From: Gemmatimonadota bacterium | Lineage (GTDB): Bacteria > Gemmatimonadota > Gemmatimonadetes > Gemmatimonadales > Gemmatimonadaceae | Assembly: GCA_021324635.1 (NCBI GenBank) | Contig: JAJPIS010000033.1 | Span: 1-44,353 of the forward strand | DNA: 44,353 nt | Direction: 5' to 3' | Shown: in pieces, positions 20,214 through 22,219 of the stretch | How positions within the stretch are numbered: the first letter of the stretch is position 1 | How the letters are laid out: each line of letters begins with the position of its first letter | Notes under the pieces: generated by a model | Database searches by the model: none | What the model was told of the DNA's origin: nothing | The model's input: only the letters and a program-made list of their open reading frames with translations | Position numbers and translations under genes: made by a program

Positions 20214-20242
20214 TTGCTCGTGCGGGTGCGGGCGCATAGCTT
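20214..20242 (+). promoter_or_regulatory. Promoter of the SAM-II leader
   Basis: TTGCTC at 20214-20219, a 17-nt spacer and TAGCTT at 20237-20242. Transcription would begin around 20249, ten bases ahead of the riboswitch, which independently supports both assignments. Confidence 0.75.
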
Positions 20243-20258
20243 GTGGGCACAACTGTCG

Positions 20259-20312
20259 ACCCGTGGTGATTTGCCGCGTATTGCAGCCACGTTAAACAAG
20301 TGCTAAAAAGCG
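20259..20312 (+). ncRNA. SAM-II riboswitch (SAM_alpha)
   Basis: The sequence matches the SAM-II consensus closely: CGTGGTGATTTG (20262-20273), then GCAGCCACGTTAAACAAG (20283-20300) and the A-rich tail TGCTAAAAAG. P1 is CGTGG (20262-20266) with CCACG (20287-20291), five perfect pairs. The loop TTG (20281-20283) can pair with CAA (20297-20299) as the core of the pseudoknot, and TGATTT is the U-rich strand that forms the triplex in known structures. SAM-II classically occurs in Alphaproteobacteria ahead of methionine genes. Here it precedes a siroheme reductase, implying that sulfur assimilation is shut down when S-adenosylmethionine is plentiful. Confidence 0.9.
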
Positions 20313-20314
20313 TC

Positions 20315-20350
20315 CGCCCGCGGCTTGTTCGAGCCCGGGCGTTCGTGTTT
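20315..20350 (+). terminator. Hairpin after the riboswitch, possible attenuator
   Basis: CGCCCG (20315-20320) pairs with CGGGCG (20336-20341) and GGCT (20322-20325) with AGCC (20332-20335) around TGTTCG; TTCGTGTTT follows. It begins three bases after the riboswitch core. It could terminate transcription, but I see no alternative pairing that SAM binding would obviously switch. Confidence 0.4.
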
Positions 20351-20506
20351 CCGGCTCCACCGCGCCATGGCCGTGGAACCGGGATGCCGGCGGCCCGCTT
20401 CTCTCCAGCGGAGGTGCGGGCTGCGTCGCTCGTGCGCGGCGTCGTTCTCGACCCGTCCCACCGCCACGATCCGACGGCGCGCGAGCGCCCTCATCGCACC
20501 GAGGCC

Positions 20507-22219
20507 ATGACCGATCCATCGCTTGCACCGCCACTGACCGCTCTGCCCCCAGGGCCCGCGCTCGCACCTCCGGCCGGCGAGACATCGACGCAACGGGTCG
20601 AGCGGATCAAGCGCGAGCGCGCGCCCTGGTCGATCCTCGACGACATCCGCCGCTACGCGCGCGAGGGCTTCGACAGCATCCCCGAGGATGATCTCGCCGT
20701 CCGCCTTCGCGCGTGGGGACTCTACACCCAGGGGGACGGCCACGGCGTGCGCGGGGACGCGGTCCGCTACTTCATGATGCGCGTTCGGACGCCGAACGGC
20801 GTGCTCACGGCCGAGATGTGCCGCGCGATCGCGGAGCTGTCCACGCGCTACGCGCGCGGCACGCTCGACATCACGAACCGGCAGAACTTCCAGCTCCACT
20901 GGCTCCGCATCGAGGACATCCCCGCCATCTGGGACCGCCTCGCGGCGGTCGGCTGGACGAGCATGGGCGCGTGCGGCGACAACACCCGCACCGTTACCGG
21001 CTGCCCGCTCGCCGGCGTCGACGGCGAGGCGGTCGCGGATGCATCACCGGTCGCGCTCGCGATCGACCGCCGGTTGAACGGTAACGCCGAGTTCGCGAAT
21101 CTCCCGCGGAAGTTCAAGATCTCGGTCACCGGGTGCCGGCACTGGTGCACGTTCCCCGAGATCAACGACATCGGGCTCACCGCCGTCCACCGCGGGGAGG
21201 AGGTCGGCTTCTCGCTCCGGGTGGGTGGCGGCCTCTCGACCCGCCCGCACCTCGCCCACCGGCTCGCGTGCTTCGTCCCGTGGGACCGGGCGGTCGACGT
21301 GGCGTGCGCCGTGGCCGCGATCTTCCGCGACTCCGAGGAGCTCCGTCTCAACCGCCAGAAGGCGCGGATGAAGTTTCTCTTCCTCACGCAGAAATGGACG
21401 CCCGAGCGGTTCCTCGACGAGCTGTCGGCGCGCCTGGGCGGACGTCTCGAGGCGCCGGTGCCCGAGCCCCTTCCCGAGGACTCCGCCGCGCACCGCGACC
21501 GCGACCACGTCGGCGTCCACCCGCAGCGCCAACTCGGGCGATCGTATGCCGGCTTCTCCATCCCATCGGGTCGCATCGCCCCCGACACACTCCGCCGGAT
21601 CGCCGACTGGGCCGACTCGTACGGGAGCGGGACGCTGCGCACGACGGCCGCGCAGAACATCGTCGTCCTCGATGTCCCCGACGAGCGCCTGCCCGCCCTG
21701 ACGCGCGCCGCCGCGGCGGCCGGCGTCCCGACGCGCGCGTCGTTCTTTCAGCGCGGCGTGGTCGCCTGCACCGGCTCCGAGTTCTGCAAGCTCGCGCTGG
21801 TCGAGACGAAGCAGTTCAGCCTCCGCCTGATCCCCGACCTGGAGCGGCGGCTCCCCGCGTTCGAGCAGTACGTCCGGATCAATGTCACGGGATGCCCGAA
21901 CGCCTGCGGTCAGCACTGGATCGCCGACATCGGGCTCCAGGGCGTGCGGATGGAGGTGGACGTCGTCGGCGGCGCACGCGAGGAGGTCGACGGCTTCGAC
22001 CTGTTGATCGGCGGCGGCCTGGGCGCCGGCGCCGCCTTCGCCCACCGCGTCGGTCTCCGCCTTCCGGCGACGCAGGTCGCCTCTGCCCTGGAGTCCCTCC
22101 TCCGCGTCTACCTCGCGACGCGCGACGAAGGCGAGGGCTTCCGCCCATGGACCCGTCGCGTCGGTGACGCCGTCGTGCGCGACGCGCTCGTGCGCGAGCC
22201 GGAGAAATCGGCCGCCTGA
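20507..22219 (+). CDS. Siroheme [4Fe-4S] sulfite/nitrite reductase (ferredoxin type)
   Basis: 570 residues with the duplicated half-domain plan of assimilatory sulfite and nitrite reductases (six-electron reduction). The first half has RAWGLYTQGDG, ITNRQNFQLHWLRIED and CGDNTRTVTGCPLAG; the siroheme-bridging cluster ligands are Cys421 and Cys427 (CTGSEFC) and Cys463 and Cys467 (GCPNAC). Sequence alone does not separate the two activities, but control by a SAM riboswitch and the lack of nitrate genes favour sulfite. The start at 20507 gives the usual short N-terminus, yet the same frame is open back to 20300 and ATG 20384 is possible. The leader is thus about 200-260 nt long. Confidence 0.88.
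   Translation: MTDPSLAPPLTALPPGPALAPPAGETSTQRVERIKRERAPWSILDDIRRYAREGFDSIPEDDLAVRLRAWGLYTQGDGHGVRGDAVRYFMMRVRTPNGVLTAEMCRAIAELSTRYARGTLDITNRQNFQLHWLRIEDIPAIWDRLAAVGWTSMGACGDNTRTVTGCPLAGVDGEAVADASPVALAIDRRLNGNAEFANLPRKFKISVTGCRHWCTFPEINDIGLTAVHRGEEVGFSLRVGGGLSTRPHLAHRLACFVPWDRAVDVACAVAAIFRDSEELRLNRQKARMKFLFLTQKWTPERFLDELSARLGGRLEAPVPEPLPEDSAAHRDRDHVGVHPQRQLGRSYAGFSIPSGRIAPDTLRRIADWADSYGSGTLRTTAAQNIVVLDVPDERLPALTRAAAAAGVPTRASFFQRGVVACTGSEFCKLALVETKQFSLRLIPDLERRLPAFEQYVRINVTGCPNACGQHWIADIGLQGVRMEVDVVGGAREEVDGFDLLIGGGLGAGAAFAHRVGLRLPATQVASALESLLRVYLATRDEGEGFRPWTRRVGDAVVRDALVREPEKSAA

Follow-up and report, generated by a model that had tools for sequence, protein, structure and literature searches.

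A SAM-II element ahead of a gene for a probable sulfite reductase in Gemmatimonadota, and apparent two-input attenuators in its relatives

SAM-II has been placed in alpha-, beta- and gamma-proteobacteria and in Bacteroidetes (PMC1273637, PMC2258182). An earlier note on a contig from another phylum proposed that a SAM-II aptamer stands ahead of a siroheme reductase gene. Is this element a genuine SAM-II, how would it act on the gene behind it, and how far does such control extend among relatives? In this study, we analysed the whole stretch of 44,353 nucleotides, called the window here, together with related genomes. The reductases closest to that of the window are carried by the Gemmatimonadetes isolates Centralia_MAG_331 (G026) and palsa_1248 (G105), which belong to the same genus; the window is therefore from the Gemmatimonadota.

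The aptamer, its promoter and its 5' element

Rfam cmscan of the whole window gave a full-length match to RF00521 (SAM_alpha) at 20253-20327 on the plus strand, with 41.6 bits against a cut-off of 36 and an E value of 4e-6. This was the sole Rfam match above any gathering score. P1, formed by CGTGG (20262-20266) with CCACG (20287-20291), is intact. The pseudoknot helices P2b (20281-20285/20301-20306) and P2a (20275-20277/20310-20312) lie on the same strand, and every P2 pair of the phylum alignment is a standard pair in the window aptamer. By the alignment, the window aptamer also has the conserved core, with the GAUUU loop, UUGC and GCUAAA. The plain fold of the aptamer and the following hairpin was not unusual (z -1.5), a value that says little because the folding program cannot handle pseudoknots. 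By the covariance model the window element is a genuine SAM-II, and it would be expected to bind SAM. The earlier note had read a SAM-II aptamer with a perfect P1 at this place and suggested scoring it with RF00521; its reading was borne out by the score and by the intact P1 and pseudoknot.

The pseudoknot covaries across the phylum. In 89 distinct phylum sequences, the last P2b pair was standard in 98%, compared with 61% when partners were shuffled, and the outer P2a pair was standard in 78%, compared with 51%. Both pairs change between G-C and C-G, and the P2b pair also occurs as A-U. The remaining P1 and P2b pairs are nearly invariant in these sequences and uninformative on covariation.

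Upstream of the aptamer lies a putative promoter on the plus strand (20214-20242), consisting of TTGCTC (20214-20219), a spacer of 17 nt and TAGCTT (20237-20242). The hexamers are found where the earlier note had placed them, and TAGCTT and the hexamer spacing recur in the same-genus relative G026. However, they are weak against the consensus, and the promoter stays putative because a consensus promoter scan of the window gave 0 sites. Across the phylum, promoter-like hexamers whose -10 lies some 22-27 nt before the aptamer were enriched, with 51 of 112 SAM-II sites scoring at least 8.5 compared with about 5% of shuffles. A conserved ACAAC (20249-20253, plus strand) stands shortly before P1, close to where transcription is expected to start. 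Among 115 SAM-II sites collected from the phylum, these being the better-scoring ones, ACAAY was found within 30 nt 5' of P1 in 95, compared with 5% in shuffles. At these sites it lies some 10-14 nt ahead of P1, again close to the expected start of transcription.

Expression platform of the window element

The stretch described earlier, 20214-20312, covers the promoter and the aptamer but ends before a terminator hairpin on the plus strand, T1. The T1 stem (20315-20341; -19 to -20 kcal/mol) is followed by the U-rich tract UUCGUGUUU at 20342-20350, and terminator-like sites were recorded in the window at 20323-20341. The U tract UUCGUGUUU is imperfect, and the stability of the hairpin is on par with that at other phylum sites. 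At 101 of the 115 surveyed sites a terminator-like hairpin begins 0-4 nt past the aptamer, and a terminator was present anywhere within 110 nt past the aptamer at 106 sites, compared with 47 of 115 after shuffling. These features suggest that the expression platform in the window is most likely transcriptional.

A candidate antiterminator on the plus strand (20295-20329) would pair AACAAG (20295-20300) in the 3' strand of the aptamer with CUUGUU (20324-20329) in the arm and loop of T1. This duplex was calculated at -9.2 kcal/mol and is weaker than in metH homologues; a long antiterminator duplex is found at metH sites such as L017, L142 and L151. The duplex between the aptamer 3' strand and the terminator arm had a mean of -10.7 kcal/mol, compared with -7.9 kcal/mol for shuffled sequences. 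Native duplexes were barely better than those with arms swapped between loci (-10.7 vs -10.0 kcal/mol), and because this difference is small we treat antitermination as a candidate mechanism. At low SAM, the 3' strand of the aptamer would be available for pairing with the T1 arm and loop, and RNA polymerase would read through. At high SAM, the 3' strand would be locked in the P1/P2 pseudoknot, T1 would form, and transcription would end before the reductase. The supply of sulfide for cysteine, methionine and SAM would thereby be coupled to the end product SAM. Termination upon SAM binding is the best reading of the element, and it agrees with the terminators reported for SAM-II (PMC1273637, PMC2258182, PMC9373788). 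We consider it likely that the genuine SAM-II of the window works at the level of transcription, as an OFF switch of a sulfite reductase gene.

Two other readings were weighed. The aptamer might control translation. It contains an in-frame GTG at 20300 from which this could happen, or it might act from afar in the manner of S. meliloti metA. The open frame from this GTG continues into the reductase, a start codon stands directly past the aptamer at some phylum metH sites (L009, L010, L013, L016, L018 and others), and translation control at a distance has been reported for S. meliloti metA (PMC9373788). However, a hairpin and a U-rich tract lie directly 3' of the window aptamer, the alignment with homologous proteins starts only at about ATG 20507, and no clear Shine-Dalgarno sequence was found in the window P2 strand, which makes translational control of this gene unlikely. 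The phylum may use both transcriptional and translational platforms, because of the metH sites with a start codon directly past the aptamer.

The window element might also be a decaying relic that no longer switches, in a genus that has shifted between SAM and cysteine sensing. Three same-genus genomes present three control states: SAM-II without a Cys-rich leader ORF (Cys leader) in the window, a damaged SAM-II with a Cys leader in G026, and a Cys leader only in G105. The imperfect U tract of T1 points in the same direction. Against decay, the window aptamer scores above the cut-off with all P2 pairs formed and the conserved core intact, and T1 is as stable as elsewhere in the phylum. We regard a relic as very unlikely and retain SAM-dependent termination as the preferred reading.

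The reductase gene and its substrate

The gene behind T1 (20507-22219, plus strand) encodes a siroheme/4Fe-4S reductase of 570 aa in the NirA/SirA superfamily, probably a ferredoxin-type sulfite reductase. Its likely start is ATG 20507, about 195 nt past the aptamer; GTG 20300 was rejected as the gene start because homology begins near ATG 20507. A 47-codon ORF with 3 Cys (20367-20510, plus strand) has a stop that overlaps the reductase start (ATGA), an arrangement that would allow translational coupling. A Cys leader attenuator in the window was ruled out, and the ORF was not counted as one, because no stretch of 12 codons in it holds more than 2 Cys, compared with 5-8 in relatives, and there is no second terminator. 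It is possibly a relic of the Cys leader of the relatives.

The cysteines for siroheme/4Fe-4S, C-x5-C and C-x3-C, are present in the translation as CTGSEFC and CPNAC. The closest solved structure is M. tuberculosis NirA/SirA (PDB 1zj8; E 1e-98), yet it is distant in sequence. We take this enzyme to be a sulfite reductase in which a Tyr and a Cys are cross-linked; the two residues align with identical ones in the window reductase. To our knowledge, SAM-II control of M. tuberculosis NirA/SirA is not known. NCBIfam NirA-type models matched the window reductase below their equivalog cut-offs, the best being ferredoxin-nitrite reductase (381.9 vs 594 bits), and sequence families alone therefore do not decide between sulfite and nitrite. 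Relatives of the reductase at 57-71% identity adjoin cysC, cysH, sat, cysN/D, cysM or cysG, where neighbour names were partly PF01507 matches and otherwise came from sequences read by eye. The three genomes of the genus (G000, G026, G105) matched neither PF01507 (PAPS reductase) nor PF01747 (ATP sulfurylase). This weakens a simple sulfate-assimilation reading, and sulfite would have to come from elsewhere.

The gene might instead encode an assimilatory nitrite reductase (NirA) under incidental SAM control. The best NCBIfam match, although below its cut-off, and the genus without detectable PAPS reductase and ATP sulfurylase would fit such an enzyme. However, the relatives at 57-71% identity are encoded with cys genes, Cys-rich leader peptides stand upstream of the reductase in same-genus genomes, and the cross-linked Tyr and Cys are kept from what is presumably a sulfite reductase structure. 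Two molybdopterin proteins of this genome, judged by eye out of hits that include two further ones, look like formate dehydrogenase and another oxidoreductase, not assimilatory nitrate reductase. We find a nitrite reductase highly improbable. The sulfite reductase favoured by the earlier note is most likely, by its cys-operon neighbours in relatives, the same-genus Cys leaders and the likeness to the NirA structure.

SAM-II and leader attenuators across the phylum

SAM-II was matched at E 0.01 in 271 of 395 sampled phylum genomes, with 221 above the cut-off; 14 control genomes gave no match at E 0.01. The earlier note was right to place this element outside the classical hosts but too narrow in its claim, because SAM-II is phylum-wide rather than an oddity of one genome, and the extension of the host range is larger than it proposed. 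In the literature searched, we found no earlier description of SAM-II in Gemmatimonadota; public annotation pipelines may already mark such sites.

The first downstream gene at the 115 sites was metH at 74, a threonine-synthase-like gene at 8, metF at 7, panB at 6, metY at 5, metX at 4, sulfite reductase at 3 and homoserine dehydrogenase at 2, with single others. The names of thrC, panB, metY, hom and metX were checked with NCBIfam, and those of metH and metF came from reading the sequences. Nearly all SAM-II sites have met or sulfur genes downstream. A search for SAM-II before cys or met genes in other Gemmatimonadota, also suggested earlier, thus found mostly metH (74/115) and cys clusters too. 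An unexpected target was panB (ketopantoate hydroxymethyltransferase), preceded by SAM-II and a terminator at L004, L012, L024, L027, L031 and L133. L151 has two SAM-II on one strand, separated by 4.7 kb, and each was classed as lying before a metH-type gene.

This genome has three SAM-II, before the reductase, before metH and before thrC-like/MoaD-like/ThiF-like genes, the latter two at L034 (11345-11419, minus strand) and L035 (11481-11556, minus strand). The thrC-like gene matched TIGR00260 above the cut-off, and the MoaD-like and ThiF-like genes were read by eye. A divergent cysteine synthase adjoins these genes, which suggests sulfur-carrier-based homocysteine synthesis at this locus.

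Reductase matches in the family numbered 14, one of which is distant, leaving 13 genomes with a close reductase. In 5 of these, SAM-II either precedes the gene or heads its operon: the window, G026, G080, G071 and G363. In G080, SAM-II (36.1 bits) heads cysH-sir. In G071 and G363, it lies about 6 kb upstream, outside the flanks first scanned, and heads the whole cysN-cysD-cysC-cysH...sir cluster. The G026 element (L118:1066-1139) scored 30.5 bits, below the cut-off; its GAUUU loop is altered (CCGTGGTCCTTGCC) with the rest intact, which may represent decay or a changed ligand. No SAM-II was found at the reductase gene of G105. SAM-II control is thus not conserved in the genus, given the damaged aptamer of G026 and its absence at the gene in G105. 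Gathering-score scans of 20 named reductase loci gave no SAM-II, and a general control of this reductase by SAM-II was rejected; the operon-head elements of the same-family genomes G071 and G363 then raised the estimate, which stays a minority (5/13 relatives). The proposed extension of the regulon to the reductase is real, but SAM control of sulfur assimilation appears to be a minority use, found in 5 of 13 close relatives, one of them with a damaged aptamer.

In some relatives, a Met- or Cys-rich short ORF and then a second strong terminator lie between T1 and the gene. We counted second terminators with a stability of -18 kcal/mol or better; 12 of 118 sites have one. A leader with at least 4 Met/Cys per 12 codons was found at 11 of these 12 sites, and the twelfth (L141) reads MMC; among the 106 sites lacking a second terminator, just 4 had such an ORF. 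In shuffled controls, 4 Met per 12 codons appeared in 0 of 1150 trials and 6 Cys in 1 of 2300. The Met leaders include MMCMGMRHMAMAMC (L157) before metY, MMMMMMRM (L172) and TMYMRHMLMRR (L185) before two homoserine dehydrogenases and SMRMTM (L284) before metX, and mixed Met/Cys leaders read TMCMCMCCM (L224) before a thrC-like gene and GMSMCMCMC (L220) before metY. Cys leaders at sulfur assimilation genes are RCSECCRECCCSCCGCC (G026), NECACACECGCEC (G080) and ACACMCPAIIACCC (G071), and the second terminator is present in G026, G080, G071, G363 and G105.

The Met-rich leaders with a second terminator, often with both Met and Cys, were seen at L157, L028, L220, L218, L172, L185, L159, L137, L224, L141 and L284, with metY, hom, metX, aspartate kinase, aminotransferase or thrC-like genes behind them. 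Cys leaders with a second terminator precede sulfite reductase or whole sulfate-assimilation operons at L118, L119, L122, L282 and L283, and L119 has this arrangement without SAM-II. Named Acidobacteria and a single betaproteobacterial record (L049, L052, L046, L056, L065, L066) likewise have short ORFs with Cys runs ahead of homologous reductases, and several of these ORFs end in a similar peptide, GAGRLLT or GQGSFRT. By eye, L185, L218 and L220 have, past the Met codons, a self-pairing segment; its 3' half can alternatively bind the 5' arm of the terminator, which would correspond to the textbook layout of ribosome-mediated attenuation.

As sequence features, these second attenuators suggest that the tandem in relatives is apparently a two-input attenuator, of which the window copy keeps the SAM half alone. 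We think it probable that Gemmatimonadota use a two-input RNA gate, in which SAM-II with its own terminator is in series with a ribosome-mediated attenuator of Met or Cys codons, and that these modules are gained and lost singly within a genus. Met-codon leaders would serve metY, metX, hom, aspartate kinase and others, and Cys-codon leaders sulfate assimilation and sulfite reductase. Full transcription would require both low SAM and a shortage of the charged amino-acid tRNA. Neither a SAM-II and leader-peptide tandem nor leader-peptide attenuation with methionine codons was found in the literature searched. The earlier note had missed the terminator platform, the Met/Cys leader attenuators of the relatives and the genus without ATP sulfurylase and PAPS reductase.

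The window element is a known riboswitch class at an unusual target in a phylum where it is common, and the combination of SAM-II with Met/Cys-codon attenuators in relatives is the larger lead. SAM-II turns from a mainly proteobacterial element into a phylum-wide regulator in soil bacteria, and sulfur assimilation genes join its regulon. The same gene is found with SAM sensing alone, with cysteine-codon sensing alone and with the two combined, and this natural series makes the logic of riboswitch and leader peptide directly testable.

The window element resembles the SAM-II/metA motif (RF00521; Corbino 2005, PMC1273637) in covariance score, P1 and P2 pseudoknot, core, a promoter just upstream of P1, a met/SAM regulon and the intrinsic terminator of many members. 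It differs from SAM-II as described in its Gemmatimonadota host, its sulfite reductase target and the conserved ACAAY 5' element. In S. meliloti, the metZ aptamer likewise has a terminator behind it, whose formation is predicted upon binding of SAM, and metA has an extra terminator and a distant start codon (PMC9373788); the target genes are different, and the relatives studied here have a Met/Cys-rich leader ORF between two terminators. The polycysteine leader attenuators of mycobacteria (Seliverstov 2005, PMC1262725; Canestrari 2020, cited in PMC13236596) are also short ORFs with a run of Cys codons, placed ahead of genes for sulfur assimilation. The mycobacterial leaders have no obvious terminators (PMC1262725), whereas those of Gemmatimonadota, outside the window, come with a strong terminator and are often preceded by SAM-II. 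The tandem SAM-II/SAM-V of Pelagibacter bhmT (PMC11508383, PMC5069961) likewise sets a transcriptional SAM-II switch in series with a second element; there, this element is a SAM aptamer acting on translation, whereas in the Gemmatimonadota relatives it would be a leader-peptide attenuator.
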